Source: Bolinopsis microptera (lineage: Eukaryota; Ctenophora; Tentaculata; Lobata; Bolinopsidae). Taken from it: DNA of 64,000 nt. Both the position numbers and the translations under genes were made by a program. Positions 19,818 through 55,339 of the stretch are shown here, one piece after another. Location of the stretch: NCBI RefSeq assembly GCF_026151205.1, contig NC_087079.1, forward strand, positions 7,802,635 to 7,866,634. The letters run 5' to 3'. The notes under the pieces were generated by a model. That model did not search any database. It was not told the origin of the DNA and was given only the letters and a program-made list of their open reading frames with translations. Position 1 is the first letter of the stretch; each line of letters opens with the position of its first letter.

Positions 19818-21417
19818 GGACACGTTCATAAAAAGGTGGCACTAGAGATTGATTTTTCACTGCCAAAATTGTGTGAAGCATTTTAAAATACTTGTATCTC
19901 AAGGAGTATGCTATGAAAGTTAACCAAATTTTAATATGTGGTCCAAAAAGAGTCAAATGTCACATAATTAAGTCATTCATCTCTTTAAATCTGTTAATTG
20001 TGCAGATATGAGCCAGAAATCACAAAATATTCATTTCTTGCACCTCTAATGATGAATTTACATTCTGTGAGTGTGTCCTGCTTCTCAATGTGATTATTGA
20101 ACCTTTCTGAGATAGTTGAGTGTTAAAAGTGCAAAGAGTCACCGGTTAAATGTGGAGTTATGATGCAATTATCACACATAGGGTTAATTCTGACTAAGTA
20201 TTTTAGAATGATGAATGTGATATGAATATCAACGGAATGATTGTAGCAATGAACTCTATCAATCACAATTATATCATGCTAACTAATATTTAGAGAATTT
20301 AGATGATTAAAAGTGCCATAATGAGTCAAAAATCACATAAATGAGCATGTATTGAAATTATGCTGTATCAGGGGAATGTATCACTTTTTGGCTCTATATC
20401 AGGTTTGTATTCATAGTAAATATGCAGTAATTTGTTGTGACACTTGTTTATGGTCATGGAGAAGTTCGTTATTAGAGTAATAGTGGAATCAATAATCACA
20501 AAACACTAATTTTAAACTGAGTAAACTAGGCAAGTACTTTTACTACTCAAGCCATGATAATTTTGTCTCCATAATGTGACAAATGAATCAATCAGTAACG
20601 TATAATACTTAATTGAATTTTTGAAATGTGATTATCGATTCATTACCTTACCTTTCAAAATGTCATTACAACTTGAACATTACATATGATTCAATTGTCA
20701 CACTTTAAAGAAAATTACATATTTGGTAGCTAGATTTAAGTGATTTTTGAATCATTTAAGCACCCAGATCAAAAATTATCGCTCAAAGGCCTTCAATATG
20801 GTATAAGCTTAGACATGGATTCAAAAATCACATAATAATAATCATAGAATGGATATAAATTGTCATATCGTTCACTTAATTTAAGGATAACTATAGTGTG
20901 ACTTAATAGCGCACCTTTAACGAAAATGTGACTTTTGAATCATATTAATTGGTTTTAATACTATTGAATACTATTTTGTACCCTAAAAAATGATAGAAAG
21001 CCAATAAAAACGTTAGATGATTCAATAATCACTGCTCAAAATAGGCTCATTTCCAACGTTTAAGTTGTGATTTTTGACTCATTTTGGCACCAATAACAAT
21101 TTCAGATAAGACATTCCATTCCTTACATGCATTATAGTCACCATATCAATTTTGGCTTCTTTGTGAATATTACTTTTCAGATTATCTAGTGTTGATTCAT
21201 CTTGCATTTCTAATTGTGTGACTTTTGACTCATTGGCACACAAATAACGATAACTCCTGTGATATAAGCACTAGAGACTCCGTGATTTCAGGATCATGAA
21301 ATTTAATCGAATTTCTAAAGGTATAGATAGACATATCAACCAACAAAGAGTAATGACTATTTTTAAAACGCATTTTAAAAAATCAATCTCTAGTGCCACC
21401 TTTTTTTGAACGTGTCC
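19818..21417. mobile_element. Element A: 1.6-kb TIR element with internal motif array
   Basis: About 40-bp inverted ends beginning GGACACGTTCA and including GGTGGCACTAGAGATTGATT, flanked by ACGT on both sides (19814-19817 and 21418-21421). No coding potential. The interior holds some 13-14 copies of a motif near GAnTCAAAAATCACA, mostly in that orientation in the left part (19949, 20008, 20317, 20487) and mostly as the reverse complement in the right part (20575, 20625, 20739, 20926, 21066, 21215), with a few exceptions. Superfamily unassigned; 4-bp duplications occur in, for example, Sola1 and Chapaev, but no transposase is present to decide. Confidence 0.8.
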
Positions 21418-21627
21418 ACGTGAGGTTGAGAAAGTTTGATAACGTCATCATCTTCTTTTTTCCTCAAAGTTAAACTGCCAAAATATATCGTGCTACTTAC
21501 CCTATATGAGTCTGTGGTCTGTACTGAATTACCTAACAGAGTTCACACTTTCCTATAATTTATCAGATTACGAAGTTTATTTAGGTATTTATTTTGCTGT
21601 TCGATAATCAAGGTGACTATATTTCAG

Positions 21628-21771
21628 GTAGAATTCCCAAACTTGTTGCAAGGAAAGCTATGAAGAATAACGATTGTCAGGATGCAGATATATACCGTTG
21701 CCCTTTCCTAAAAGCAAAATGTGCCAAAACAGATGTACACACTATGTGCCCAAAATCATGTGGAATTTGTG
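21628..21771 (+). CDS. Gene 1 exon: ShKT module
   Basis: Acceptor TATATTTCAG, donor TGTG|GTAAG, phase 1-1. DCQDADIYRC ... MCPKSCGIC. Confidence 0.85.
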
Positions 21772-21896
21772 GTAAGAAGTTTTAATTTATATCATGTAAC
21801 TGCTGTGATCCATTACAAGAATAAAAGACTGGATCACAGATTATACACGTCCTGATATAGAAGTCCTGAAACGCTTTTACCTACATCATATTTCAG

Positions 21897-22061
21897 GAAT
21901 AACCGGTTTGCAAAGTGTGGGCTCTGGAAAATGTGGAAATAGAGTGCGCTACGACGTTTGCGCTGTATGGAAAGCAAAAGGAATGTGCGATCCTAAAAAT
22001 AGTGGATATAGATCAAATGTCAGAGGAAAGCTTTGTAAGAAAACATGCAACTCCTGTGAAG
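21897..22061 (+). CDS. Gene 1 exon: ShKT module
   Basis: Acceptor CATATTTCAG, donor GAAG|GTCTGT (weak), phase 1-1. KCGNRVRYDVC ... LCKKTCNSC with a lengthened loop (DPKNSGYRSNVRG). Confidence 0.8.
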
Positions 22062-22533
22062 GTCTGTCCTGTTTTTTCAAATGTATTTGTTTAAAGTTGT
22101 AACAAGAATTTCGCTGCGGTTAAACCACGCACGATCAATTTTCCCTACGATGTACTTGTACCATTAATTCTTTTGAGTGAAAAGTGTTACTGGAAAAAAG
22201 TGCAACATAATTAAATACTGTGTTTTTTATAAATGAGTGGGATGCATGGTAAAAATTGACGAATGATTTGACCAATGTAGCGCCGCGCATCAACAATAAA
22301 TCCCATAAATGAATCCAGAAAATTGCGGAAAATAACTTTGCGAAGGAGGAATTTCTAATTTAAATCTGAAACTTGAAAGTTTGTCTTAAACCATATATTT
22401 AGATATTTGTGAATGTGACCTACGAGCACGGATAATATGTCGGATAACTTTTGAGGCATTCAAAATTGATCAGGCAACTATCTGTTTTCTACACATACAA
22501 ATCTTCTTGTATCAACGTTTTGGATTATTTCAG

Positions 22534-22632
22534 ACGGAATTCTAATGCCAGATAATGAGGAAAAGAAAGACGAAAGTATCGATAATGAGGAAAAGAAAGA
22601 TGATAACAAGCCGAAAAAAGATACTGAGAAAA
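22534..22632 (+). CDS. Gene 1 exon a1: charged linker
   Basis: Acceptor GATTATTTCAG, donor AAAA|GTAAGA, phase 1-1. Encodes a Lys/Asp/Glu-rich linker (MPDNEEKKDESIDN) without cysteines. Its intron to b1 is only 154 bp. Confidence 0.85.
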
Positions 22633-22786
22633 GTAAGATTCTAAGCAACCAATTTTGGAATCTCAATTTTTCACCTCTCACTTTTCTCTTAAAATAAAAT
22701 TGTCACCATTTAGTTTATTTTTTATTTCCCTAAAGTTAATTGATCTGATTATTATATGAACTTTGAACTTAATCTCTCTCTATAAG

Positions 22787-22987
22787 ATTCAAGTAGAACT
22801 GAACCAGACAACAACAAGAAAGAAAGTGACGGAAAAGGAGGGAACAATAATAACAACGGAGATACTGATAAATGTGAAGATTTAACTACATATAAAAGCA
22901 GATGTGGTATCTGGAAATCAAGAGGATTTTGTTCTCGTACAAAAATTAGAGAAAGTTTTTGTAAAAATACGTGTGGTACATGCAAAG
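22787..22987 (+). CDS. Gene 1 exon b1: Asn-rich linker plus ShKT
   Basis: Acceptor CTCTATAAG, donor AAAG|GTTAGT, phase 1-1. Asn/Gly/Asp linker then KCEDLTTYKSRC ... FCKNTCGTC. Confidence 0.85.
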
Positions 22988-23222
22988 GTTAGTTTGGTTA
23001 GTTAAAATCCAGAAAATTGTGGAAAATAACTTTGCGAAGGAGGAATTTCTAATTATCTGAAACTTGAAAGTTTGTCTTAAACCATATTTAGATATTTGTG
23101 AATATGACCTACGAGCACGGATAATATGTCGGATAACTTTTGAGGCATTCAAAATTGATCAGGCAACTATCTGTTTTCTACACATACAAATCTTCTTGTA
23201 TCAACGTTTTGGATTATTTCAG

Positions 23223-23321
23223 ACGGAATTCTAATGCCAGATAATGAGGAAAAGAAAGACGAAAGTATCGATAATGAGGAAAAGAAAGATGATAACAAGC
23301 CGAAAAAAGATACTGAGAAAA
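23223..23321 (+). CDS. Gene 1 exon a2: charged linker
   Basis: Same as a1 with the same splice signals, 689 bp downstream. Confidence 0.85.
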
Positions 23322-23475
23322 GTAAGATTCTAAGCAACCAATTTTGGAATCTCAATTTTTCACCTCTCACTTTTCTCTTAAAATAAAATTGTCACCATTT
23401 AGTTTATTTTTTATTTCCCTAAAGTTAATTGATCTGATTATTAAATGAACTTTGAACTTAATCTCTCTCTATAAG

Positions 23476-23676
23476 GTTCAAGTAGAACTGAACCAGACAA
23501 CAACAAGAAAGAAAGTGACGGAAAAGGAGGGAACAATAATAACAACGGAGATACTGATAAATGTGAAGATTTAACTACATATAAAAGCAGATGTGGTATC
23601 TGGAAATCAAGAGGATTTTGTTCTCGTACAAAAATTAGAGAAAGTTTTTGTAAAAATACGTGTGGTACATGCAAAG
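23476..23676 (+). CDS. Gene 1 exon b2: Asn-rich linker plus ShKT
   Basis: Copy of b1; the first exon base is G (Ser at the junction) instead of A (Asn). Confidence 0.85.
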
Positions 23677-25054: not shown

Positions 25055-25109
25055 GTCAGTCCGGTTAGTTTGTTTAAGTACTCTTATAATACTCTTTCTA
25101 AAACTAGCT

Positions 25110-25998: not shown

Positions 25999-26022
25999 AT
26001 ATTTATCCACATACTTATTATA

Positions 26023-26418
26023 CACTTATATTATATACTTATATACTTATATACTTATATACTTATATACTTATATACTTATATACTTATATACTTATAT
26101 ACTTATATACTTATATACTTATATACTTATATACTTATATACTTATATACTTATATACTTATATACTTATATACTTATATACTTATATACTTATATACTT
26201 ATATACTTATATACTTATATACTTATATACTTATATACTTATATACTTATATACTTATATACTTATATACTTATATACTTATATACTTATATACTTATAT
26301 ACTTATATACTTATATACTTATATACTTATATACTTATATACTTATATACTTATATACTTATATACTTATATACTTATATACTTATATACTTATATACTT
26401 TATATATACTTATATACT
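26023..26418 (+). repeat. ACTTATAT octamer satellite, about 49 copies
   Basis: Same unit as at 16770-16993 but longer, and interrupted from its upstream exon by the SINE-like insert. Confidence 0.95.
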
Positions 26419-26464
26419 GTAAAAGAGTAATGAATTTCCTAAGCCAGATAATGACAAAAGTCTT

Positions 26465-26894
26465 ATGCCAGATAATGATGGAAAAAAAGTGGAAAATATT
26501 GATACTGATGAAAAGAAAGGAGAAAGTATTAATAATGATGAAAAGAAAGAAGAAAGTATTGATAATGATGAAAAGAACGAAGAAATGATTGATAATGATG
26601 AAAAGAAAGAAGAACGTATTGATAATGATGAAAAGAAAGAGGAAAGTGTTGATAACGATGAAAAGAAAGAGGAAAGTATTGATAATGATGAAAAGAAAGA
26701 GGAAAGTATTGATAATGATGAAAAGAAAGATGATAACAAATCAGAGAAGGATACTGAGTCTTGTGATGATAAGGAAGGTGCTGATAGGTGTGGTAAATGG
26801 AAATCAGAAGGATATTGTGAAACGAATATAGAACTTAAAGAAATATTCTGTAAGAGGACGTGCGGTTCTTGTGAAGGAGTAACCCTCAATGAAG
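26465..26894 (+). CDS. Gene 1 exon: acidic repeats plus ShKT (paralogue of 17041)
   Basis: About eight DEKKEESIDN-type repeats, then SCDDKEGADRC ... FCKRTCGSC, donor GAAG|GTTAGT. The true 5' limit is uncertain: the acceptor equivalent to that at 17040 (here AAAAGAG near 26428) would enter in the wrong phase because the leader is two bases longer, so an unseen acceptor is used or the leader carries a frameshift. The start given is the first in-frame ATG, not a proven exon edge. Confidence 0.75.
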
Positions 26895-34245: not shown

Positions 34246-34309
34246 CAGAGTAGATCAAAACGCAGTCTGACAAATGACATCACATCAGAATACTGTTGGC
34301 CTCTCTTAA

Positions 34310-34340
<31 letters not shown>

Positions 34341-36561
34341 CACCCTGATTTTTTGTGAAACTTGGTTTCGAGATAGCAGTTGACCAACAAACTAGGACCA
34401 GTGACCGAACTTTTGAGGGGGTCCCAGACCCCAACCGCCAAACGGTGCCTGCGGGGCAGCCACGCCCATATTTGGTCCAAATTAGGCCCAATTTAGCCAA
34501 ATACCCTGAACATGCCCAATATCCAGATTTAAGATGCTTTACTTGTAGCTAGTGGTTCCTTGAACTTGTATATGAATTTTCATCAAGATTGGAAAAAAAT
34601 GACTGAGTTATGAGCAAAAAACCATATGACCATATTTGGGCATACGCACCAAATTTGATCGATTTTGGCCCATAAATTGGTCAAATATCAATATTTTTGA
34701 ATGAAACCAACTTTATATGGAAGGTAAGCCTATACTACACATTATCGATGATTATCAGCTCAGTATCTACCTAATTGTGGATTCGATGTTCAAATAATCG
34801 CAAAAAATGAACAAAATTGCCCATATCTCAGTTCGCGATATTTGCAAAACTGACTTCGCTCAAAACAATAGAACTCAATAGGGTTTCAATATTTTTTCAT
34901 GAAATTTTCAGAATCAACGTAAAATTGTCTCATAACCTTAAGTTTTAGGACAGAATTTTGAGTTAGGCCTTTTAAAAAATTTGGCGGCCAAATTCTAAAT
35001 TTAGCAGTGCAAATTTTTGGAATTTGGCCGCCAAATTTTTTTGCTGGATTTTGGGCATGTTCAGGGTATTTTGCTAAATTGGGCCTAATTTGGACCGAAT
35101 ATTGGGGTCCGGGACCCCCTCAAAAGTTCGGTCACTGGTCCTAGTTTGTTGGTCAACTGCTATCTCGAAACCAAGTTTCACAAAAAAATCAGGGTGAACC
35201 CCCCCCCCCCCCCCCCCCTTAAGGCTGATCTTTTCGGCGAGATGTTTTAGGAACTGTGAAGCCTCAGACGCCATTTCTCCGGTAGTACTGAACACCAGTG
35301 GCGCGAAGGTAGCCTTTTCTACATTGAAGGTAGCCTTTTCTGTCATTGTACTCACTTTTTTGTTTTTCTCGTGAGATTGGTACATCTGCGAGATGCTCTT
35401 GTCACTGTTTGACTGGGCTTGAGGGTGAAGTACCCTTACATCTGTGAATGCCCTGTCCAGTGGCGACCAGAACGATCTCGCACTGATATCCAGTCTTGCA
35501 CCATCCTGTCTATTTGGAGAGAAGCTGAGGTTCTATATTCTGTTTCAACGTCTTTGCAAACAGTGGTTAGGAGTTCAGCTATTGTATCTCTGAGTGAATT
35601 GTGTCTAAGTGAAACTTAGCCTCCGATTTTGCAAGTTAGAGTATGGTTGATATGGTTTTGTTTTTCACATACACATAGGGTACGTTTCTGTTAGCTGTAG
35701 ACTTGTAGGCAGTGTAAGATTATATCTGAGTGAGAGGAAATCAAAGAATTCTTGTTTGTTGAGGACATACCTTGACATGCTTTTAGAGGGAGTGTGGATA
35801 ACCAACTGGATGCTCCTTTTTCACTAAGGAGTTCTATTTGCCTTTGTGTGGACTGTGGATGATGATACCTCATTCATAATAGTTTCACGTTGGTGTTTCT
35901 TCCTTATGCTTCTTTACTTCGTTTATGATGTTATGCTGCAGTTCCTCGTTTAGTTGGAATGTAGTATACTGTTGAAAAACTGCTTCCGTGAGCTGTTTCG
36001 TAGCATTTACTGAGTTGGAGTACTCCATCTCTGCTGTTGATGTGCAGTCTGGAATGCTCAGACCGCCCATTCTTGCGGGAAGTGAAGCTATCTTTCTGAT
36101 CTGATCAGGCACAAAACTTTTGCCCATAATGGCTGGTATAAAGTCTTCTTTGACACAATATTCCAAGAGTGTTAGGTGATCAGAAATCCATGGGGTGGTA
36201 CGTCAAACAAAGTTCCACCTTTTGGAGGTTCCGTAGATGAAAGCGGAGTAAGCTGGCTGGGGTTCGTTTGCAGCTATAACGGTGGCCTAAGTAATCTGTA
36301 CATCTGGAAAGATTCCTTAGCTTTGATAGCATGCTCTGGTTTCACTATCAAACATGTCTTGCTGGGCTTTGGGTAATACCCATACATGGGACAATGATCT
36401 TTCAGATCCTCCCACCATTTCATGAGTTGATCAAGTTTACCCCATGCTGCAGAGTTGTCTGCATACCAAACTTGTTTGGGATAAGTTCTAGGTTCCGTGT
36501 CTGGTTCTAGTTCTGAATCAAGTTCTGTCTGTTTAATCTGGACTTCACTGAGTAGAGGCAT
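34246..36561 (-). mobile_element. Degenerate non-LTR-type RT element, split by a MITE
   Basis: Minus-strand pieces in order: KQVWYADNSAAWGKLDQLMK with GYYPKPSKTCLIVKPEHA (RT catalytic region, YADN in place of YADD), ARMGGLSIPDC, LLSEKGASSWLSTLPLKA, FSTTGEMASEASQFLKHLAE, and, beyond the MITE, YSDVMSFVRLRFDLL then a stop at about 34245. This order matches an RT family common in invertebrate genomes. Stops and frame changes separate the pieces; it is dead. Clade not assigned. Confidence 0.65.
34310..35218. mobile_element. Poly-G/poly-C TTAA-flanked MITE, family 2, inside the RT element
   Basis: 909 bp. G-run at left and C-run at right; inverted ends of more than 100 bp including AACTTGGTTTCGAGATAGCA. 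TTAA at 34306-34309 and 35219-35222. Deleting the element and one TTAA rejoins the host RT element's reading frame (LAEKISLK to RGQQYSDVM), which confirms the boundaries. TTAA targeting is that of piggyBac- and Kolobok-type elements. A partial copy lies at 54420-55080. Confidence 0.9.
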
Positions 36562-39262: not shown

Positions 39263-40339
39263 TTAGGCTAGGTGGACTGCGGTTCTATAGTCTTGTCTAT
39301 TGTTGATGAGTGACGTGTTTATATTATTGATTATTTTGGTGTGCTTTTGGCCAAGTGTTAGTTTGGTGTGTCTAGGACCATCTGTTAACCAGATATCCTG
39401 ATTCAGTCTGTGGACTTTGTTGTCGATTTGTCGTTTGATGTAAGATTGAGGGATTGTGCATTTCAAAACGAGTTCGCTGGTCGTGCCGAGCTTGGCCAGC
39501 TCATCCGCTTTTTCATTTCCCCACAACCCAATGTGGGCTGCAATCCATCGGATCTCTAGAGTGTTGTTCGATCCCAGTGCATTAAGGGTGTCATAACAGT
39601 CTCTGGTAGTTCTGCTCCTCGTTGAGAGGGAGGAAATAGCTTGTATGGAGGAGAGACTATCAGACCATATAATGATGTGTGAGTTGGTGTAGGATGAGAG
39701 ATACTTGCAGGCTTCAATGATTGCAGTGAGCTCTGTCCGGTAGACAGTGCAATAATCAGGGAGCTTGAATGATCTCTCTTCCAGGGTGGTGTTGTTGTTG
39801 TCAGTCGTGATGATGTACCCAGCCCCACTTCCGGAGTCTGATAGAGACCCATCTGTGTAGCAGGTGATCGTTTCTCTGGTAATGTTGTCGATGGTGTGTT
39901 GGAGTGCGGTTCTGTATTCAGTGTTGTTAATTCCAGGAGTGGTGACGGTGAAGTGCCGTCCCAGCATCATGGTTGGTGCTGTGAGGTCTCTTGTGGCTCT
40001 AGGTGGTATGTTGAGATCCTCCATGAATTGTTTGTTGATCGTGGTGTGGTTTTTGATAGTTCCCTTCCTGTGGGCGATAGTTTCAAGAGTGAGGCTGCCG
40101 TAGGCTTGAAGCCTTGCTGCCCCTTTCGCTGCTTCGCCCCTCAGGAATAGTATGGTGTCTGGGGTGTCAGTAAGGTGATTCAATGCGAGGAAGGGTGTAC
40201 TTGGCATGGCACCAGACATCATTCTCAGTGCCAATGCCTGCACACGTTTGAGCTTCCTCACATTGTAGTCCGTGTCAGTTGCCCTGATCCATATACTACA
40301 GCAGTAGGACAGAATGGGTCGAATGACCGCTGTGAACAT
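39263..40339 (-). pseudogene. RT thumb and RNase H domain of the LINE
   Basis: 358-codon frame. RNase H catalytic residues are visible in order: Asp in CYTDGS, Glu in RTELTAI, Asp in WSDSLSS and Asp in NEKADELA. Intact as a domain but detached from its start by a frame break. Confidence 0.8.
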
Positions 40340-40567
40340 CCATTAACAAGTTTTAGGGCTCATACCCCATGTGGGGCCGACAGCTCTTCGACATTGCATG
40401 AGGGATGCCGTGGCTTTTTTGGTGATGTTGATGATGTGTTCGTTGAAATTGAGTTTGCTGTCCAATGTCACTCCTAGGAATTTAGCCGACTTCGAGAGAC
40501 CTATAATATTGTTGCCAATTTTTATTGGTCTCAAAGTCCACTTAGTATTCCAGGTAAACATGACTAT

Positions 40568-41614
40568 CTAAGTCTTGAGTGCGCTGATAGATAGATCCTT
40601 GGTTTGGCACCATGTTTCTATCGTATTGATGGTTTTGCATGTGCGGTTCCAGATGATGTCCAGGTCATTTCCTTCTGCTAGTGAAACCAGGTCATCTGCG
40701 AAGGCTTGCAGGTAACCCGGTATGTCCTTCGCAGTAAAGGAGAGGAGATCATCGACTACCAGGTTCCATAGAAAAGGAGAGAGGATGCCTCCTTGGGGGC
40801 AGCCTCTCCTGATCTGTACCCTTCTCAACTTATCCTTATGACTAAGAGTGATAAAGCGATTAGTGACCATGTTGATGATCCATTGCGCTGTAGCTAGGTC
40901 CACTTTCGTGGCCCTCACTGCTTCAGAAATAGCTTTGAACGAGACGTTGTCGAAGGCGCCCTCTATGTCAAGAAAGACTCCTAGGACGTATCCCTTCTTA
41001 GCTATTCTGCGCTTAATGGTGTGGGTAACTTTATGAAGTGCCGCTTCTGTTGAGCAGCCCTTCCTAAAGCCGAATTGTCGTTTGTTTATGTCATTTGCTA
41101 TGTTGAGGTCGTGTTGCATGTGCCAAAGAATCACTTTCTCCTGTAATTTTAGCATCACAGGTGAAAGAGTGATTGTGCGAAAAGACTTAGCCTTGTTGTA
41201 GTCGGTTTTGCCGGGTTTGGGGAGAAAGATTCCGATGGAATCCCTCCACAAAGTAGGGATGTGTTGTGTTTTGTGATTATTTGTCATGATGTTTTGTGTT
41301 ATAACTTTGATATGGTTCCAGGCTTTCTGGAAAATGATCGGTTTCAGGGTGTCCGGTCCTGCAGCCTTCAAAGGATCGAAAGACATGAGGGCCTTCTCGA
41401 TTCTTTCAGGGCTGTAGATTTTGTCTAGTAAGTCTGAGGTGATGGGTATTGGGCCGAGGTGCGGGACTGGCGGATCAGTAACACTCTCCCTGAAGTGGGT
41501 TTGAGTCATGACCTCCAGTGTCTCCTCTGCGTTTTTGGTGAGTTCTCCGTTGGTTTTATAAATGGCTTCTAGTTTGTTGTTGGTGTCAGTACAGGTTTTC
41601 AGAATCTTGTTCAT
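40568..41614 (-). pseudogene. RT domain of the RNase H-bearing LINE
   Basis: 348-codon uninterrupted frame with all RT blocks, including FLDIEGAFD and the catalytic FADD. It is out of frame with the endonuclease upstream and with the thumb/RNase H frame downstream (break near 40565), so the polyprotein is broken. Confidence 0.85.
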
Positions 41615-43541
41615 CCTTCCAGATTCTTTGACCGATTCTGTGTCTCTGCAAAAGTTCCGCCACGCATTGCGCTGGGAGTTGGACAGGATCTTGTTGTATT
41701 GCTTGTTGCTTTCTCTGAGAGCAAGCCACGAATCGTCAGTTTTCTTTCTGCGGGCTGTAACGAGTTTGCGTCTTATTCCCCTCTGAGCTTTCTCGAGTTA
41801 GCCAGGGTGGTTTGCGGACCGCACTCGATATGTAAGTAATAGGACATGCCTCCTCGAAGGCTGCCCTGAGAGCAGAGTTTAAGGTGTTGACCTTTAGGTC
41901 GATTTCTTGGGGTGTGATAATGCCGTTACTGTGGAGGTCGTTGTTGTTCTGTAAAATCTCGTCAAATTTCGCCCAGTCAGTGTGCTTGACTAGTCGTATT
42001 TGACGTGGTTCTTTTTTGGGGCCGGATGTTATATCAAACATAATATATCTGTGGTCTGAGTTAGAGTATAGATCGCTAACGTGCCAGTTGCTGATCAGCT
42101 CCGCACCCTTTTGGTTAGTTATGGTGAGATCAATAATGGAGTTATGACCGCGTGAGTTGAGAAATGTGGGTGTTGACCCTCTGTTGGAACAGGCGAGCCC
42201 TAGTGACGAGAGGAAATCTAGGAGATCCTCCCCCCTACTATTGCACATCCTATTACCCAGAGAGTGTGTTGGGAGTTGGTGTCAGACCCTATGATAAGCG
42301 GTATGTTGTTATCAATAGCATACTTGGCTAGAGGTGTTGTCTCGTGGGATGGAGCAGGGCCATTAATATCCATGTACGAAGCTGCCAGAATTACTTCTGT
42401 TTAGCTTAGTTGGATCTTAATGGCAACCTGATCCGGGGTTGTAAATTGCAGTAGTTCCCAGCTTTTGAGGGCTAGGTTTTTGTGTATTACTACGGCGGCA
42501 CGTGGCCTAATGTCCCCGGCCTTATAATAATACTCAGTTAGGTCCTTGCTTATAGTTGGGATATGGTTCTTGTTGTTTGTGTATGGTTCAGTAGCAAGTA
42601 TAATAGGATTTTTCCTGCCGTGAGTGTTTACTAGCAGGGTTTTCCAGGCGTTGTACTTGCGTTTGAGGTTGATTTGGGTAACAGAGTAATGTTCAAAATG
42701 AGTTTTACCTGTTTTGGCTGTAGTTTTTGAGGTGGTCTTCTTGCCCCTTCCACCTCTGCGTGTCTTATGTCGTTGTATGTTATTGTTGTTTGTGGGAGTG
42801 GTATAGATTGGAATAGTATTGGTGGTGGGGGTGGTGGGGTTTGCATTAGTGTTGGTGTTGGAGACGTGGAGTTCAGCATCAGCAGTTTCCCTCACCGGAC
42901 CGGTACTAGGACCTTTTGGTTCGGGCACTGTGTCTGGGGGCCGGCCTGAGGCGTACCGCAGCGACCGTACCACAGCGTTTCTAGTAGGAAACTATGTCCC
43001 TTGAGGAAGGTCTCTCCCTCAGGAGAGACCTCCACCCAGATCCGCTGCCGCTGCCTGCACCCAACCGACAAACCCCCACCTTCCTGTTGCTGAACTTCCA
43101 CAGTCTCCCAGGTATTGGACACGTGCCTCAGAGAGCTGCATGGTAGACCATGAGCTACGTTCCTCAGCATTAGTCCCCGTACTATAGTGTGAGGGTCAAG
43201 ACCAACATCACTAGGTCCCTTCCCCGATAACTGATTTGGCACGTAAAAGGTGTACCGGCTCCAGACGTCCTGGGAGGTGACTGTCCAGCCCGCCTTTTCA
43301 AGGCACGCTGTCACCATCTCCGCAGACGCCAGGTCCGCCAGCTCTATCCGCGATCCACCAGGTATCGGTACTAACGACGTAATTACCAGAGGCTGTGGGA
43401 CGAGGAAAAGTTGGCGGGCGATGAGATCGCTCGCATCACTACCCTCCCCTTCCTTGACAACAAGAAGGGTGATCACCGGATCACCCTTCCTGTATATCTC
43501 TTCGGGGGTGGGAAGCAATTCCTCCTCCGGCACTTCGGCTT

Positions 43542-44243
43542 GTGGAAGCAATAGACCTCGTTCAGCGGCCTGAATGCCAGATGGGTAAAATGGAGGAGAT
43601 CATCTATTTCTTGAAGACGGAAGCGTTAGAAGACAAGGATAAGGTGATCAGGCTGCAGGGCCAGCTGCTTGAGCAGAAGGACAAAGAACTACAATTGTTT
43701 AAGACGTCGGTTAAGGAGACAGTGCAAACAACGGTGGAGTCAGGGATTAAGAGCTGCAGTGCAGCTGTACAACAGAACAGTGCAAGTGGTACGGTCTGCA
43801 ACAGTTACATCCTGAAGAAGGGGATGAAGAGTGTGGCTGCAGAGGAGGACAGGAGCAAGAACCTGATTGTGTTTGGGTTGAAAGAAGAAGAGGGAGAACA
43901 GCTTCCAGCGCTAGTAACCGCAGTTCTGGAGGAGATTGGGGAGAAACCTCACTTCGAAGCGACTAGAGTCGGCAGGAAGAGGCCAGGTAGTACGACTATC
44001 CGACCAGTAAAGATCACTGTCCCAAGCTCAACAGCGGTTCAACAGATTCTGATGAAGACAGGAAGACTGAGGCTAGTTGAGATCCACAAAAATGTATGGA
44101 TCTGTCCAGATAGATCTAGCGAAGAACGAGCAACGAGGAAACATCTGGTTACCGACCTGAAGAAGAAGAGGGCTGAACAGACTCATCTCGACCACTATAT
44201 CCGGTACGGGAAAGTCTGTAGCCGTGATAAGAAACCACCATGA
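43542..44243 (+). CDS. LINE ORF1-type protein
   Basis: 233 residues: N-terminal coiled-coil-like Lys/Glu/Gln region (about residues 20-70), then SKNLIVFGLKEEEGEQL, ATRVGRKRPGST, RPVKITVPSSTAVQQIL and WICPDRSSEERATRKHL. This is the RNA-binding core common to CR1/L1-like ORF1 proteins. The frame is intact. It abuts the opposite-strand LINE head-to-head. No endonuclease or RT follows. Confidence 0.75.
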   Translation: MEAIDLVQRPECQMGKMEEIIYFLKTEALEDKDKVIRLQGQLLEQKDKELQLFKTSVKETVQTTVESGIKSCSAAVQQNSASGTVCNSYILKKGMKSVAAEEDRSKNLIVFGLKEEEGEQLPALVTAVLEEIGEKPHFEATRVGRKRPGSTTIRPVKITVPSSTAVQQILMKTGRLRLVEIHKNVWICPDRSSEERATRKHLVTDLKKKRAEQTHLDHYIRYGKVCSRDKKPP

Positions 44244-46425: not shown

Positions 46426-46767
46426 AATAGAGCAGCAGAAGCTGAGAGAATTCTAGAGGAACATAATATAGCTGCAGAAGCTGAGAGAATTCTAGAGAAC
46501 AGAATAGAGCAGCAGAGATGAGAGAATTCTAGAGGAACAGAACAACACAGCTGAGGAAATGCATAGACTACAAGAGCTAGAGGAAGGGAATCTTATGTTG
46601 GAACAGTAGATTGCTGATGGTACACAATCATGTCAGTATTCAATAGTAAACATACATCGTAAACCAGTTGCAAGATCTAGGATTGTAAAAATTAAGAAAG
46701 ATAATAATAATATTATTATCTTTTTTAATAATTAATATTCGTGCAAATAAAACACAGGAAACCTTAT

Positions 46768-49056
46768 GGTCATGTTAGAGATTGATGGGTCCCTTTTTTC
46801 CTACTAATTACCTACTTTTCACTGTCAATCAGTTATGACTTCATAAAATCCAAACCATAGCTTGCTTGCAGAAAATATTTCACCACAGTATTCCTATGAC
46901 ACTTCTCTACATATTCGTGTCATCAGAAAATCCAAATATCAACTTTGGTGGAGCCAGTGACCATTAAAAAAACACAAGTGCTCCACTTGTGGGAAGGTGG
47001 ATGTGGCATATCTGTATTTATCCATGTCTACAGGTGGAGAAGGCATATGGGAACACGTATTGTTTCGGTTGAGACACTTTTGGTGTACAACCTAGGTGGA
47101 GCGGCCAGTGTAAAATAGGTCAACTTATACCAAGTGAAAACATGATCATATTATTATAATTTCTACCAAAACTTCATTGTAAACTCAATGGCACATATTT
47201 TTTAATACCATTTGCTTTGTTAGGAGGTCCCATAAGGTCCCAACTCAAGTGGAGCAGACTCATTCTAAAACTTGACTTGTTCAAAATCAGTCATTTTGCC
47301 ATTAAACTTGTCTCAGACATGACAGGGATTAGGTGGTAAATGATCTGTGAATATTATTCCAGGCGCTAATTATCATAATACTATGGTGATTAAGACTGCC
47401 AAAAACTGCTCAACGAAGGTGGAGCTCGTATTTAAAAGCCAAAATTTTGGACGTTTAAAACCATCTTTTAAGAGTACTAAAATTAGAACTAATTGAACTT
47501 ATAGCTTTCTAATATGTTTAATAGTTCACCCCTAAGTGATTTATAAAGTAGTGATTACCCTGGGATCAACCTGGTGGAGCAGAATTGGGTCTTTAGTTAC
47601 TGTATTTAGGAAGAAATTCGTGGACTTAAATATCCCTCTCATATCTTGTCCCCTCAGCTAGCAATCCTAGTACAGTGGTATATAATAATTATATTGACCA
47701 ATTAGATCAACCTGGTGGAGCACTGGGAGCTAAATCTATATTACAGAGTGTTGCGTGAGAACTTATGTAATACGTAATAGATTAAAATAGAGCTGAGTTT
47801 GAGAGTATATAAATTAGAGACGTAAACTAGTGATTTTCTATTTACTGCTCCACCATAGTTGATCATAATTGGGAATGTTTGATCATTAAAATGAGTTAAC
47901 AATTATCATATCTTTCTGATGAAATCATTGATTGAGTTCAAAATGTCTGTATCAACCTGGTGGAGCACTTTAAACACATTTTTAGACGCTAAGTTTTTAG
48001 ACGCTAAGTTGACGTTTGCTCCACCAGGTTGAACAACCCTGGTCCTTTAGCCCAGCTAGATATTAAGATATGACAATTGTGATTGTAGTTAATGCAGTTT
48101 TAGAGCCATTTTGGGTTTGTATCAGCTGTGGTGGAGCCTCAGTTTTTGATATATTTCTACTGTTCAATCTGCATCAAAACCATAAATTAGAGACGTAAAC
48201 TAGTGATTTTCTATTTACTGCTCCACCATGGTTGATCATAATTTGAGAGTTTTAAATATCAGAACAGGTGCTCAGTTATCACAACTCTCTTTAAATACAA
48301 CTGACAGGCATCAAACAGCATGTCTCAGTCAGGTGGAGCACTTTTAAATCTTAACATGGTGTTGGTATGGTATAACATGGTGTTGCTCCACCGGGTTGAG
48401 CTAATTTACTAATTATTCACACTCATATCACATACCATGACACTTATCGATGGAAGGGACGAAGTTTTAAACACCATAGAGGTTGTTAACATATTTTTAT
48501 ATCAAGTTTATATTTACACTGTCAAATTTTCAAAAAATGCATTTTCAACACTTGTAGTTTAACTGACCTAACCTGTTGCTCCACCTTGGTTGAACTAGGT
48601 AGGGGATAAAACCTTAATCCTGTGACATGCTTGAGATTCAGGAGCTTACAAATAAACAAGAATGGAGATCCAGTGACAATGCTAACCCCGGGTTGAGACA
48701 GCTTTAAGGTCTAAATTTGATGGCTCCACCAGGTTGAGACATATTTGAATTTAAAAACCGCATCATTGAACTGGAAATTTCTCCAGATAAGAATTCCGTG
48801 ATATAACTGGCACCGCCTGAGGGATTTTAGTTTTTTTACCAAAGCCCTGCTCCACCCAATTTGCTTCACCTGATTAGAATGGCTATAGTTTCGCTCCAGG
48901 TTGAGCTTTTAATTTCTTTTCTTTTTTATGAGGAGGATGTGATTTTTCGCTACCTAAGCTAAGCTATGTATCCAAATGTCACAGTATAGCTCCACTAACA
49001 CAGGATGATTTATTAGAAAAAAGTAAAAAAGGGACCCATCAATCTCTAACATGACC
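46768..49056. mobile_element. Element B: 2.3-kb TIR element filled with GGTGGAGC motifs
   Basis: Inverted ends GGTCATGTTAGAGATTGATG continuing GGTCCCTTTTTT, flanked by TTAT (46764-46767, 49057-49060). About 18-20 copies of a motif near ATCAACCTGGTGGAGCA. In the left half most point right (46948, 47089, 47241, 47411, 47567, 47708, 47953); in the right half most are reverse complements (48018, 48219, 48384, 48577, 48721, 48848, 48893). No coding potential. An uninterrupted copy of the insertion site is present at 49487-49540. Confidence 0.85.
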
Positions 49057-49064
49057 TTATCCAA

Positions 49065-49490
49065 AGGGGCATTTTGGGGGTCACAAAGGCGCATATCTCG
49101 AAACTTAAAGATCACACTTTCTTCAAACTTTTCACGCAGTTGTATGGTCAGGAGACGGATAATCGGTGAAATTTTGGGCTAATTTTAGGCAGCCGAACTC
49201 AAGATAGGGCATTTTTGGGGTCACAAAGGCCCATATCTCGAGACTTAAAGATCACACTTTCTTCAAACTTTTCACGCAGTTGTATAGCCAAAAGACAGAT
49301 AATCGGTGAAATTTTGGGCTAATTTTAAGCAGCCGAACTCAAGATAGGGCATTTTTGGGGTCACAAAGGCCCATATCTCGAGACTTAAAGATCACACTTT
49401 CTTCAAACTTTTCACGCAGTTGTATAACTAGGAGACGGATAATCGGTGACATTTTGGGCCAATTTTAAGCAGCCGAACTTGAGATATTCG
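49065..49490 (+). repeat. Three tandem copies of a 140-bp repeat
   Basis: The unit includes GGGCATTTTTGGGGTCACAA, CATATCTCGAGACTTAAAGA and CTTTTCACGCAGTTGTAT. Step 140 bp. The sequence just after it (49487-49540) repeats the flanks of element B. Confidence 0.85.
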
Positions 49491-49782
49491 TGCAAACACA
49501 GGAAACCTTATCCAAAGGGGCATTTTGGGGGTCACAAACTTTAATATTGAAGTAGAGGTCTATATAACTATAACTATACGTGGAACAACCGGGTGAAAAC
49601 GTGAATCTTTCAAGATCGACCAAACCCCCAAAATCAAATAAGATGGCTGAAGTTATGATAGAAATCACGAATAGAATTATTCGTGAACAAAAGAACTAAT
49701 TTACGGAACTTAAAAATATACATATCTTGATGGCAGCCATATTATTGTGATATAATAGAAATAACATTCTATCTAATTTCAG

Positions 49783-49953
49783 TTGATGGAGGATACGGTG
49801 CTTTTGGAGATTGGTCTAAGTGCTCTGCTGACTGTGAGGGAGGAACCCAAACCAAAACCAGACAATGTAACAACCCCGCTCCCAGGCATGGTGGTAAAGA
49901 CTGTGAAGGAGACGATTCTAAAACTCAACCATGTAACGAAGATCCTTGCCCAG
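49783..49953 (+). CDS. Gene 2 exon: TSP1 repeat 2
   Basis: Acceptor CTAATTTCAG, donor CCAG|GTAATT, phase 1-1. YGAFGDWSKCSADCEGGTQT core with six cysteines, ends NEDPCP. Closest to repeat 5. Confidence 0.9.
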
Positions 49954-50247
49954 GTAATTTTAATATAAAACTTACCAGTTCCGAGTTTTTATAGATGTAA
50001 AATCTTTATCTGAAAGATTCCTATTTTCAATAATTTCTCCCGAGAAAAAATCTATCAAAGATGAAATAGTTTTGTATGTAGTAACGTGTATAAATGGGAT
50101 ATTCCTGTATTTTTCAATCAAATTTTATAGAAGCGGATATTTTCGAATTATTCATGAACAGAAGAATTAATTTACGGAACTTAAAATATATATCTTGATG
50201 GCAGCCATATTTTTGTGATATAGAAATTACATTCTATCTAATTTCAG

Positions 50248-50421
50248 CTGTTGATGGAGGATACAGTGCTTTTGGAGATTGGTCTAAGTGCTCTGCTGAG
50301 TGTGACGGAGGAACCCAAACCAGAACTAGACAATGTAACGACCCTGCTCCAAGTAATGGTGGTAAAGAATGTGAAGGAGACGATTCCGAAACTCAAACAT
50401 GTAACGAAGACCCTTGCCCAG
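50248..50421 (+). CDS. Gene 2 exon: TSP1 repeat 3
   Basis: Phase 1-1, donor GTAATC. Same core; has QVMVV-type bases where others encode PRHGG, here reading PSNGGKEC. One extra codon at the start (AVDGG), as in repeat 1. Confidence 0.9.
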
Positions 50422-50726
50422 GTAATCTTATTATAAAACTTACCAGTTTCGAGTTTTTATAGATGTAAAATCTTTATCTGAAAGATTCCTATTTTCAGGT
50501 GCTTCTTGAAAATAATTTCTTCCGAGAAAAAATCTATCAAAAATAAAATAGTTTTGTACAGTAATAACGTGTATAAATTCCTGTCTTTTTCATTCAAATT
50601 TTATAGAAGCGTATATTTTCGAATTATTCATGAACAAAAGAATTGATTTACGGAACTTAAAATAAATATCTTGATGGCAGCCATATTATTGTGATATAAT
50701 AGAAATAACATTCTATCTAATTTCAG

Positions 50727-50897
50727 TTGATGGAGGATACAGTGCTTTTGGAGATTGGTCTAAGTGCTCTGCTGAGTGTGACGGAGGAACCCAAACCAAA
50801 ACCAGACAATGTAACGACCCTGCTCCCAGGCATGGTGGTAAAGACTGTGAAGGAGACGATTCCGAAACTCAAGCATGTAACGAAGACCCTTGCCCAG
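50727..50897 (+). CDS. Gene 2 exon: TSP1 repeat 4
   Basis: Phase 1-1, donor GTAATC. Same core, ends NEDPCP. The intron flanks match those of repeats 2, 3 and 5 closely. Confidence 0.9.
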
Positions 50898-51204
50898 GTA
50901 ATCTTATTATAAAACTTACCAGTTCCGAGTTTTTATAGATGTAAAATCTTTATCTGAAAGATTCCTATTTTCAGGTGCTTCTTGAAAATAATTTCTCCCG
51001 AGAAAAAATCTATCAAAGATGAAATAGTTTTGTATGTAGTAACGTGTATAAATGGGATATTCCTGTCTTTTTAATCAAATTTTATAGAAGCGGATATTTT
51101 CGAATTATTCATGAACAGAAGAATTAATTTACGGAACTTAAAATACATATCTTGATGTCAGCCATATTATTGTGATATAGAAATTACATTCTATCTAATT
51201 TCAG

Positions 51205-51375
51205 TTGATGGAGGATACAGTGCTTTTGGAGATTGGTCTAAGTGCTCTGCTGACTGTGAGGGAGGAACCCAAACCAAAACCAGACAATGTAACGACCCTG
51301 CTCCCAGGCATGGTGGTAAAGACTGTAAAGGAGACGATTCTAAAACTCAAACATGTAACGAAGATCCTTGTCCAG
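51205..51375 (+). CDS. Gene 2 exon: TSP1 repeat 5
   Basis: Phase 1-1, donor GTAATT. Same core. Its downstream intron and next ShKT exon match the block after repeat 1. Confidence 0.9.
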
Positions 51376-51689
51376 GTAATTTTATTATAAAACTTACCAG
51401 TTCCGAGTTTTTATAGATGTAAAATCTTCATCTGAAAGATTCCTATCTTCAGGTGTTTCCTGAAAACAATTTCTTCCGAGAAAAAATCTATCAAAAATAA
51501 AATATTTTTGTACAGTAACGTGTATTAATTTATATTCCATTTATGGGATATTCCTGTCTTTTTCATTTCAATTTTATAGAATCAGATATTTCCGAATTAT
51601 TCATGAACAAAAGAATTAAATAACGGAACTTAAAATACATATCTTGATCATGATCGTGGCAGCCATATTTTTGTGATAGGAACGCATTT

Positions 51690-51810
51690 TTGTGATCGGA
51701 CAAATAAGGTCCGATAAGGTAGATATGATAATTTCTATCTACCTTATCGAATCTTATTTGAACGGACATTAAATTAACAGACATAATTATGAACGGACAT
51801 TAGTATATAT
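51690..51810. repeat. Partial TAATGTCCG MITE
   Basis: Right half of the family seen whole at 37147-37541, in the equivalent position of the duplicated intron. Confidence 0.6.
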
Positions 51811-52016
51811 TTTCGAATTATCCATGAACAAAAGAATTAATTTACGGACTCTAAAATACATATCTTGATGGCAGCCATATTATTGTGATATGAATTACAT
51901 TCTACATTGAACGGACATTAGTATGAACAATCCTCATTACTATTAGTATGAACAATCCTCATTTTTTTAAACGTTTTTTTATTTCAGCAAATGATTTTAA
52001 ATCCATTTTTATACAG

Positions 52017-52133
52017 ATTATGATGCAAATTGTAGAGATAGATTTAACGCCAGATCTTGTGCTTTTATTTTTAATGGAAAGAGGTGCCAACAGAGCGGAG
52101 ACAAATGCCGAAAAACATGCAAAATCTGTACAG
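52017..52133 (+). CDS. Gene 2 exon: ShKT module
   Basis: Acceptor TTTATACAG, donor ACAG|GTTAG, phase 1-1. NCRDRFNARSC ... KCRKTCKIC. Confidence 0.85.
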
Positions 52134-52293
52134 GTTAGTTACATTTTTATTTTGTTACCGACTACCGTTGCTATTTGATCAAATAAATCTTTTGCTTTAT
52201 CGAAGTTATGTATAACCCCCTCCCTTCAATCCCAAGGCCAGCCCCCGCCCCCAGCCCACTCTTTCTGGTATCTCCACGTAACTTCATTTACAG

Positions 52294-52413
52294 ATTTAAA
52301 ATACAAGCCAGTTTATGATGAGAATTGTAAAGATACTTACAGCCCTTCTTTTTGTGGAAATTGCCAAAAAGGGTACCGACAATACTGCTTGAAAACATGC
52401 AAAATCTGTACAG
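52294..52413 (+). CDS. Gene 2 exon: compact ShKT module
   Basis: Acceptor CATTTACAG, donor ACAG|GTTAG, phase 1-1. NCKDTYSPSFCGNCQKGY ... YCLKTCKIC; only two residues separate cysteines two and three. Confidence 0.8.
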
Positions 52414-53999
52414 GTTAGTTATTATATTTTGTTACTGTTGCTATTTGATCACATAAACCTTTTGCTTTATTGAAGTTACGTATAAGGACACGTTTTTTAA
52501 GTGTGGTGAAAATGACTTGGAGTGCCATGACAGTTTTTATAGTGAAAGTGAAATGACTAGTAACTAGAAAGTTTTTCACAGAAATGCCTTCAATCTTAAC
52601 TGCCCCTATAAGGAAAATCCATTAGTTAGTCAATATGTCATAATATAGTACCAAGGTAGTGCCAGTTTTCAGCATTTTGGACTATAATGTTTAAAACGCC
52701 CGTAAAAAACTGAATTTTGCGACTTTTCTGTTCTAAATTCAGATTATTATATATATATCTCAGAATTATTCAAGAATATTTGGATTTTGGTAGGAATACT
52801 TAAACTGTGCTCAAAATAAGCAAAAAGTCATTTGTTTGATAAAATTTCTAGTTTGGTCGAAGGAGTTGTACAATGCCCATACTTTCGATCAGCTTGTGAA
52901 TGAACTGCAACAACTTTTAAGAAACGTTGGTCTGTAATAATGGAGCCTAGCAAAAACCTATTGTGTGCCTGTATTCAGTAAAAATTCACTCAAAAAATTA
53001 CAAGTGAGCTTTTTTACATTGCAATAGCTACTAGCTAGACAGCCACAAATTAGAACGTTTTTCAAGCATACTGTCGAGATTAAATCTGCTCAACAGCATT
53101 CTGTTCGAAAATCAAATTAAGAGTGTGTCAGTTTTCAGTCAAAAGTCATTTTTAGGTCAAAAGACAAAAAGTCAAAAGAAATGACTCTTTGCTGAATATT
53201 GGCACTATACAATTGATGTCTGACAGAATTTAAAGCAGGTTCATCAAGATGATTCTTTACAAAATCTAACGATATTGTGTGTTCTAATTCAGCAAAAGCC
53301 ATTTTATATAAATAATATTTCTAGCTTAAAATCTTCATAAAAATGAATTTTTGCTGATTATTAGCACAATAAAGTAGATTTCTGACAACAATATCATGTT
53401 CATCATGGAAATTTGGTACATACTATTGATGTTTGAAGTTCATTGTGCCAGTTTTAAGTTAGTTATAGCAGGTTATCATAACACTGCATACAAAGCACAT
53501 ATTTTATGTGATTTACTATTGGTATATGCCTAGAAAAAGAAGTCACTTTAAGCTGGATAATGGCACACAGTGCAACAAAATTGTGCCACACACACAATAA
53601 AAGGCACACTCCTCCCTCAAACAATATTCCAAACTTTAAAAAGTGCCATTTAGCAATAAAAATGATTATTTCTGTCAAACAAGTCACTTTTTTACTGATT
53701 TCCAGGACACATATGCTGTTTAAATTTTCAAGATATAATTATAACTAAACTAAGATTTATATCTGCAACATAAACAATTCGGTGGTTTGAGATTTTTGAT
53801 AATGCTTATATTGACTTAAAATAGTCGGTAATTCCCACGATGGCTGCAGTAGTCACTACAGCTGATAAGTGGCACTCTAATATAATTATCTGTTTTTGAC
53901 CCCTTTATGAACACATTACTTTTCGAAATAGATGCTTAAACTAAGGCTAACATAAGATATATTCTTGTGAACTCGGCTAGTATATATTAAACATTTGTC

Positions 54000-54115
54000 A
54001 TGGAGTTGTAGAGGGAGTTATGTGCCTCGCCGGGCTAAAGTAGTGGATGACCTTGCTGTACGGCAAGTTAAACAAGGATCTGAAACTACTAGGTTCCGTA
54101 CAGACTCAACTCTGC
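54000..54115 (-). repeat. Dispersed SINE-sized repeat, copy 2
   Basis: Inverted match to 735-850 (CCTTGTTTAACTTGCCGTAC, GCAAGG-CATCCAC), inside element C. Confidence 0.5.
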
Positions 54116-54419
54116 ACCCGTGTCAATATGTTCATTATATGCAAGCCTCTTGATTTATACCCATGGATTAAGAAATAGACATGTAGGATTAGGAATTAGT
54201 TTAACGACACAACCAAAAATTATCTTATCTATAAAAAACACGCCTTCATCTTTTTAATATTTTGCAAGAACCATCACTATTCATGTATGAAAGTGACTTT
54301 TTGCTGGATTCTGTCACCTACTGGAATTGCTAATGATGACTAAAATACTGAAAACAGTTACACACTGAACAATTTTTGCGCGAAATGTGACAAAATCAAT
54401 GAATTTAGTCATGTTGAGG

Positions 54420-55080
54420 TTAATTTAGCAGTGCAAATTTTGGAATTTGGCCGCCAAATTTTTTCAAAGGCCTAACTCAAAATTCTGTCCCAAAACTTAA
54501 GGTCATGAGACAATTCTACGTTGATTCTGAAACTTCCATGAAAAAATATTGAAACCCTATTGAGTTCTATTGTTTTGAGCGAAGTCAATTTTGCAAATAT
54601 CGCGAACTGAGATATGGGCAATTTTGTTCATTTTTTGCGATTATTTGAACACAGAATCCACAGTTAGGTAGATACTGAGCTGATAATCATAGATAATGTG
54701 TAGTATAGGCTTACGTTCCATATAAAGTTTGTTTCATTCAAAAATATTGATACTTGCCCAATTTATGGGCCAAAATCGATCAAATTTGGTGCGTATGCCC
54801 AAATATGGTCATATGGTTTTTTGCTCATAACTCAGTTATTTTTTGTTCAATCTTGATGAAAATTCATACACGAGTTCAGAGAACCACTAGCTACAAGTAG
54901 AGCACCTAAAATCTGGATTTTTGGCATGTTCAGGGTATTTGGCTAAATTGGGCCTAATTTGGACCAAATATGGGCGTGACCCCCTCAAAAGTTTGGTCAC
55001 TGGTCCTAGTTTGTTGGTCAACTGCTATCTCGAAACCAAGGTTCACAAAAAAATCAGGGTGAACCCCCCCCCCCCCCCCC
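54420..55080. mobile_element. Partial copy of the poly-C/TTAA MITE (family 2)
   Basis: Matches the right-hand three quarters of the 34310-35218 element, with conserved AAATTTTTTCAAAGGCCTAA and the C-run at 55064-55081, followed by TTAA. The left end is truncated but also meets TTAA at 54419. Confidence 0.75.
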
Positions 55081-55339
55081 CTTAAAATGATTCAGCTGAT
55101 TTTTGGCACTTAGTTTAATTTTTCATTGTTCATATTCTGCTTGAGCCTGGAACTTCGTTTTTTCAAATCACAACTGCTGAATATTTTCACTTCATCCTAT
55201 GAACAAATTTATGGTTGCACTTTAAAAAGCACTGCGACATTTTCCTCATTTTGTGCAGTCTACTTTGAAAAAGGTAAAATCAGCAACACACCACACTTTT
55301 AAAAAAATGTGTCCATAACCTCCCTTCCTCCCCCTAAAG

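Follow-up and report, generated by a model that had tools for sequence, protein, structure and literature searches.

We describe a group of transposons in a 64,000-nucleotide stretch of DNA from the ctenophore Bolinopsis microptera (assembly GCF_026151205.1, contig NC_087079.1, positions 7,802,635 to 7,866,634; the whole stretch is called the window below). Three DNA transposons in the window, A, B and C, have no coding capacity; their inverted ends are short, each is flanked by an exact 4-bp target duplication, and each carries a regularly spaced array of a short motif. Several described systems have some of these properties. The CENP-B box, which is the site of a transposase-derived protein, is repeated at nucleosome length in alpha satellite; as described, however, that is a true tandem satellite with a 171-bp monomer, whereas here the spacers are unrelated and the transposon is dispersed. 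Foldback and Galileo elements have repeated structure within a transposon, as is the case here, but in their descriptions the structure consists of long, internally repetitive terminal inverted repeats (TIRs), whereas the array here lies outside the 35–40 bp TIRs of A and B. Coral CMITEs are likewise non-coding elements with a notable interior; according to their description, it is the interior, piggyBac-like in character, that is conserved between families, whereas the elements here keep no more than a motif and its spacing (PMC2872659).

The accessible text of the Hermes study describes a hAT element in which many short sites for the BED domain of the transposase lie subterminally, with one prevailing orientation at each end, and in which about 220 terminal bp are needed in cells (PMC10368747). 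The A/B/C group is like Hermes, so far as described, in having subterminal site repeats with one main orientation per end, although the sites here are predicted. Hermes differs in its 8-bp target and in its tetranucleotide sites, which crowd at the tips, whereas here a word of 15–20 bp recurs in steps of about 154 bp along the whole element.

Ends, target duplications and families

The exact ends, TIRs and target site duplications (TSDs) of the three elements were obtained with a script and from repeat-finder output on the window.

19814–19817: TSD ACGT, left of A
19818–21417: element A, non-autonomous TIR transposon, 1600 bp
19818–19857, plus strand: left TIR of A, 40 bp (TIR identity 98%)
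21378–21417, minus strand: right TIR of A, 40 bp (TIR identity 98%)
21418–21421: TSD ACGT, right of A
46764–46767: TSD TTAT, left of B
46768–49056: element B, 2289 bp
46768–46802, plus strand: left TIR of B, 35 bp (TIR identity 97%)
49022–49056, minus strand: right TIR of B, 35 bp (TIR identity 97%)
49057–49060: TSD TTAT, right of B
52482–52485: TSD ATAA, left of C
52486–55314: element C, 2829 bp in this copy
54424–55081: secondary insertion in C, 658 bp, a repeat with TTAA flanks and a C-run end; related to 34321–35216, and no member of the transposon group
55315–55318: TSD ATAA, right of C

The inverted ends of all three elements start with GGNCAYGTT, with one change in the right end of C, and TAGAGATTGAT is present in both TIRs of A and of B at differing offsets. 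The ends of C are imperfect (GGACACGTTTTTT and GGACACATTTTTT, plus an inner match of 16 nt at 88%). In none of the elements does the longest open reading frame (ORF) exceed the maximum over 100 mononucleotide shuffles. A first-pass annotation, made from the letters of the window, had proposed the common ends, the three duplications, the sequence shared by the TIRs of A and B, and the lack of coding capacity, all of which hold. It had also given C as one element over 52486–55314; the ends stand, but C is a 2.2-kb family element, and the length of the window copy is due to the nested repeat. This TTAA-flanked repeat, with G-run/C-run ends, is found at 34306–35221 and 54420–55085, the latter copy being the one that interrupts C. 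The window has seven occurrences of the pattern GGNCAYGTT, where simulated sequence gives 1.9; five of the occurrences are ends of A, B or C, and the other two lie within the repeat at 34321–35216.

The same type of end is far commoner than chance in the genome as a whole, which was searched as a 264.65-Mb assembly of 232 contigs. The pattern WTATGGNCAYGTT has 980 matches, against 129 for the reversed pattern, and at least 7 of the 100 matches listed fall in a short tandem array. Short tandem arrays with units of about 45 and 52 bp, which contain TAGAGATTGAT or ATATGGTCATGTT, were noted at G000:C1:12492430-12492800 and C1:419573-419948; these are possibly transposon ends that have become satellite.

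Family A has 131 matching pieces and at least 22 full-length copies, the window copy included, at 96–100% identity, and its exact TIR ends number 115 (reversed control, 0). The median divergence of the 22 copies from their consensus is only 1.75%, and A has therefore been recently active; because no two of them have flanks in common, they are separate insertions. A perfect 4-bp TSD accompanies 20 of the 22 (9 ATAT, 3 TTAT); in one of the other two copies the TSD is off by one base (L026), while for the second (L027) the reported match ended early and the copy was left unjudged. A longer form of A is present at 12 places. Left ends of A are also clustered at kilobase steps, with no right ends listed, at G000:C10:10707585-10714472 and C11:1656466-1685372.

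Six loci are related to B and all are B-like on scoring: two long copies, one of them in the window, and four shorter ones. The four short copies have the same ten flanking bases on each side and are probably one insertion copied along with its surroundings. Family C has 64 exact ends (control, 0). Two further families were added, namely D, whose ends GGACACGTTCATTNNAGTTTGAGG have 903 exact matches (control, 0; some 450 copies, if the ends are mostly paired) and which divides into subfamilies D1 (L068, L070, L072 and L073) and D2 (L069 and L074), and F (L071), with eight exact ends that form four pairs, three of them 2.24 kb long. A search with other continuations of the TIR gave 14 matches, as did its control. 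Beyond the ends and simple sequence, BLASTN detected no similarity longer than 25 bp between the interiors of A, B, C, D and F.

Inverted ends, TSDs of fixed length (perfect and 4 bp in 35 of 37 elements over all families, with L028 and L037 having common flanks) and dispersed copies are the marks of class II TIR transposons. Within that class no superfamily is assigned. The target of piggyBac and Kolobok is TTAA, which is absent among the 35 TSDs. EnSpm/CACTA elements have CACTA-type ends, and the ends here begin with GG. In hAT, P and Merlin the TSD is 8 bp (7–9), against the 4 bp found here, and for Foldback/Galileo, which have long, internally repetitive TIRs, the TIRs here are too short: 35–40 bp in A and B, and in C still shorter as well as imperfect. 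Ginger1/2 are described as requiring TGTNR termini (PMC2836005), as opposed to GGNCAYGTT. The AT-rich 4-bp TSDs resemble those of Sola2: the available part of the Sola2 description gives 4-bp AT-rich TSDs (ATAT, AAAT, ATTT, AWWT) and short TIRs (PMC3627910), and here 28 of the 35 TSDs consist of A and T only, a composition biased by the D copies and F, which were picked with ATAT or TTAT in the pattern. On the other side, no transposase was seen in the A/B/C group, and that part of the description mentions no interior array for Sola2 (PMC3627910). As given in the source available, the Repbase rule for placing non-autonomous elements in Sola2 is a match of the terminal 11 bp (PMC4455052).

Motif arrays inside the elements

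A, B, C, D and F each carry a family-specific motif of 15–20 bp that recurs inward from both ends in steps of about 154 bp, on the plus strand from the left end and on the minus strand from the right. The words are ATGAnTCAAaAATCACA in A, ACACAAaAATCACA in F, GTAAAnTnnGTCACA in D1, GTGCCantAtTCAGCAAAA in C and CAAcctnGGTGGAGCA in B; those of A and F are alike in their 3′ part, and those of B and C are distinct. Motif seeds were chosen from repeat lists and not by spacing. In the window the arrays are as follows.

20008–21033, plus strand: A array of ATGAnTCAAaAATCACA, at 20008, 20160, 20321, 20484, 20686, 20816 and 21017 (extra site at 19948)
20627–21233, minus strand: A array of ATGAnTCAAaAATCACA, at 21217, 21066, 20927, 20739 and 20627 (extra sites at 20089 and 21281)
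46940–48342, plus strand: B array of CAACCTnGGTGGAGCA, at about 46940, 47088, 47241, 47411, 47566, 47707, 47952, 48123 and 48324
47844–48864, minus strand: B array of CAACCTnGGTGGAGCA, at about 48846, 48720, 48575, 48382, 48217, 48015 and 47844 (irregular further matches omitted)
52659–53661, plus strand: C array of GTGCCAntATTCAGCAAAA, at 52659, 52807, 52965, 53125, 53279 and 53643 (also in family copy L067)
53187–55190, minus strand: C array of GTGCCAntATTCAGCAAAA, at 53187, 53349, 53548, 53857, 54299, 55091 and 55172

Consensus sites number 15 in A, 19 in B and 13 in C, against 0.6, 0.3 and 0.3 in mononucleotide shuffles and 0.3–0.4 per element length in the rest of the window; the 19 in B include four overlapping two-strand pairs and so mark 15 places. 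Matrices built from each element's own repeats, with a threshold set to admit roughly one false site in each shuffled element, gave 18 sites in A, 19 in B, 22 in C (L067), 23 in D1 (L072), 22 in D2 (L074) and 15 in F, the last with a seed taken from the observed repeats (a first seed had given one site). From these come the regular series below, given as distances in bp from the element end; the two marked sites come from other scans.

A, plus strand, from left end: 192, 344, 505, 668, 870, 1000
B, plus strand, from left end: 171, 319, 472, 642 (added separately), 797, 938
C, plus strand, from left end: 174, 314, 472, 625, 784, 949
D1, plus strand, from left end: 205, 359, 521, 723, 862, 1014
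F, plus strand, from left end: 196, 349, 509, 686, 841, 1007
A, minus strand, from right end: 186, 337, 476, 664
B, minus strand, from right end: 192, 318, 463, 656, 821
C, minus strand, from right end: 204, 353, 509, 696, 852
D1, minus strand, from right end: 183 (added separately), 334, 496, 641, 818
F, minus strand, from right end: 183, 335, 486, 628, 789, 941

In a list of sites curated by hand, in which weaker or off-series matches were removed and the two marked sites put in, the regular series begins 171–205 bp from all ten ends, and 44 of the 57 spacings fall within 125–180 bp, the mean of these 44 being 153.9 bp. The regularity was also found with uncurated sites. All matches in A, B, C and F were pooled with those of D1 within 900 bp of each end, a limit set by the tandem part of D1; D2, being related to D1, was set aside. 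Of the 76 spacings between neighboring sites on one strand, 36 lay in the interval 138–170 bp, compared with a random mean of 5.7 and a maximum of 14 in 5000 trials. The pooled distances from the ends were periodic with a best period of 165 bp (R 0.50, against a maximum of 0.42 in 300 random sets); ten curated spacings of 187–202 bp may pull the period up to this value. A seed-free test with the top 8-mer of each element placed 22 of 86 spacings in the interval, where the random mean was 6.7 and the maximum in 2000 trials 16; none of the 16 spacings from A lay there. Finally, motif-free autocorrelation at 138–170 bp exceeded all 40 shuffles for A, B and C; the scores were 13 for A, 8 for B, 13 for C, 5 for the D1 arm and 11 for F, and 21 control chunks of the window had a mean of 3.0 and a maximum of 8. 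As to polarity, summed over A, B, C, D1 and F, 35 of 47 plus sites lie in the left half of the element and 37 of 50 minus sites in the right half; in D2 the figures are 10 of 15 and 5 of 7.

The first-pass annotation had seen a different motif in each interior, which the site counts confirm, and had placed it roughly every 50–150 bp on both strands. Both strands are indeed occupied, but the step is mostly about 154 bp per strand and the polarity is inward; the common period, the anchoring to the ends, the polarity and the joint motif change described below had all been missed. Its proposal of one transposon group whose binding-site-like arrays differ by family is supported by the full copies and by families D and F. 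Two conditions that it had named as refuting the proposal, unrelated termini and a lack of 4-bp duplications in most copies, do not hold, given the genome-wide sharing of the ends and the perfect TSDs of 35 of 37 elements.

A regular step of this kind might be what is left of a satellite, if the elements had grown by tandem duplication of a unit of about 154 bp and the motif were a remnant of it. There is some precedent within the group, because D elements contain extra tandem two-site units of about 303 bp, gained by later duplication. Satellite units, however, are alike over their full length, and in the curated sites of all five families tested the agreement between sites is 0.59–0.75 in the motif columns and 0.25–0.31 in the flanks within 70 bp, where chance is 0.27–0.29. 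The array interior is therefore not decayed satellite, nor are the motifs satellite insertions, a point that the first-pass annotation had asked to be checked. The tendency of polarity to flip between element halves, and the joint D1/D2 change in sequence that otherwise diverges independently, also speak against a satellite origin, which we consider very improbable.

Joint motif change and a putative reader

D1 and D2 permit a comparison of two related arrays, which carries more weight than any other single finding, their consensus sequences (of four and two elements, respectively) being 77% identical in the left arms and 86% in the right. Ten matched sites were defined by a GTCACA core kept in both, two of which face each other. 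At position −7 relative to the core, D1 has A at all ten sites and D2 has T at all ten, whereas in 5000 random sets of ten positions a single change was seen at most five times in any of 24 columns. All six GTCACA cores of the D1 left arm are kept in D2, against 28% of hexamers. The word has thus been re-coded jointly at all matched sites while the surroundings drifted independently. Because the change is joint at all ten sites, a reader protein with altered specificity is offered as a simple explanation, and the comparison implies a co-evolving, sequence-specific, putative reader.

Short-tract gene conversion among sites could also yield family-specific words, by homogenizing the motif in each family with no reader involved. 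It would, however, require tracts of about 15 bp that spare the flanks, respect the spacing and stop at the motif edges, and we find it scarcely credible.

On balance, we favor the interpretation that the arrays are cis-acting sites, extending inward from the TIRs, for a predicted family-specific DNA-binding protein, and that they are used in transposition rather than carried as cargo. A, B and C are non-autonomous transposons of the cut-and-paste type, with a 4-bp TSD and a preference for ATAT, and would be moved in trans. The reader would most likely be the cognate transposase, or else an accessory protein, encoded by an autonomous relative; it may occupy the element at intervals of about one nucleosome length and help to find or pair the two ends. 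Motif word and reader would diverge jointly, family by family. These elements encode nothing, so that selection would act on them mainly through mobility, and the persistence of an end-anchored array across families with no detected interior similarity therefore indicates a cis function in transposition. That the word changes from one subfamily to the next suggests a separate partner protein as the reader of each.

The first-pass annotation had left the arrays as sites for transposase or host factors, or as regulatory cargo. Cargo is disfavored by the occurrence of differing motifs at similar positions in one host, and a family-specific reader is preferred, with a host factor as its rival. In the latter case each family would have arrays for a host DNA-binding protein, such as a zinc-finger protein, that opens, expresses or silences the element. 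Hosts can hold large, diverging zinc-finger families, and nematodes are known to have small transposons with arrays of host motifs. However, the motifs that occupy similar positions within this one genome differ, although A and F have theirs partly in common, so that most families would need a separate host protein, and repressor sites would be expected to be lost, rather than kept and re-coded at ten of ten places. We therefore regard host-factor arrays as unlikely, though deserving of consideration. Because different motifs coexist in one genome, an element-specific and probably element-encoded reader is preferred over one host factor.

The step of about 154 bp suggests one site per nucleosome, and it could be that the step itself positions nucleosomes and that the motif is mainly a positioning or linker signal. 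The spacing is close to nucleosome length, and the elements show a weak correlation of WW at a distance of about 10 bp (with no control run). But positioning needs neither a family-specific 15-bp word nor a joint single-base change, and GC around the sites varies little (0.30–0.37); a chromatin scaffold of this sort seems to us quite improbable.

Several observations weigh against a family-specific reader and a function for the arrays. Among the 22 A copies, motif columns vary like the rest (shared variants 5.2% and 4.8%, p = 0.76), and pairwise variation in motif and rest is 5.6 and 6.9% in C and 3.3 and 4.2% in B. Short B copies are without most minus-strand sites, and the longer form of A has an unrelated 345-bp insert inside the array. 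These two kinds of copy say little about mobility, because their flanks are in common and they have spread with their surroundings: the long-A copies checked, L037 and L038, have identical flanks, which are also those of the insert-free L028. Some sites are off the series (for example B 231 and 360, C 633 and D1 690), certain of them closer to the ends (A 132 and 122; C 55, 123 and 160; D1 67 and 134), autocorrelation did not exceed every shuffle for the D1 left arm or F, and helical phasing of the sites was tested and not seen (p about 0.08–0.17). An autonomous partner, which the first-pass annotation had suggested seeking by its ends, was not found among those long A and D copies and the one 6.8-kb C copy that were read or probed. 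Lastly, the authors of the Hermes study consider it unlikely that additional transposases bound to inner sites are required there (PMC10368747).

Long copies, neighboring features and significance

The long copies considered as autonomous candidates gave the following. The nested frames of a 7.4-kb A copy (L065) and a 7.1-kb D copy (L068) look, by eye, like non-long-terminal-repeat (non-LTR) retrotransposon; the flanks of L065 (G000:C3:4649500-4657500) place it in repeated sequence that resembles, again by eye, C2H2 zinc-finger coding DNA. Three further long D copies were probed. L076 and L078 match reverse transcriptase, while of two probes in the same copy, L077 has an endonuclease family match below the Pfam cut-off and L079 has no match. 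An 8-kb D copy (L075, L080 and L081; G000:C1:15637000-15643400) carries an unrelated nested element with inverted repeats and exons that by eye resemble a DEDDh 3′-5′ exonuclease, and a Pfam search of one piece of this element gave no match. A GGAGGA-type minisatellite, which yields spurious long frames, is present in a 4.5-kb A copy, of whose interior about 1.5 kb was read, and in a 6.8-kb C copy, of which 0.7 kb was read (L036, L082). The longest copy of F, L071, has no long ORF. As for the shared flanks of long A, L028, L037 and L038 represent an A insertion within a larger copied repeat, with or without the 345-bp insert.

The window has other repeats. At 3910–7470 there is a large inverted repeat, with arms near-perfect over long stretches from about 3958 inward and central ORFs at 5197–6271, which is probably another mobile element. 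A ATACTTAT microsatellite followed by a 30-bp minisatellite beginning GATAATGATGAAAAG occurs in two copies about 9.3 kb apart (16770–17341 and 26011–26730). Remains of a non-LTR retrotransposon, with endonuclease, reverse transcriptase and RNase H matches, lie at 39263–43599, and tandem arrays (140 bp × 3 and 476 bp × 4) lie between B and C at 49067–51648.

In the literature on transposons whose binding sites form subterminal, periodic or regularly spaced arrays, judged from listings, nothing was recognized as the architecture proposed here. We put it at an even chance that this is an undescribed architecture, in which putative sites for a transposase or its partner span the element at nucleosome-length steps and are re-coded everywhere when the specificity of a lineage shifts. 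The arrays could help to classify unassigned non-coding transposons, by array instead of by sequence. Because non-autonomous elements keep mainly what mobility needs, a conserved, end-anchored array of about 154-bp step would mean that the TIR is not all that counts when DNA is moved in chromatin. The change between D1 and D2 at ten of ten sites would be a natural record of a DNA-binding protein shifting its specificity along with its sites and, if this is true, one genome contains matched sites whose specificity has changed, in a series that may be read without knowing the protein.

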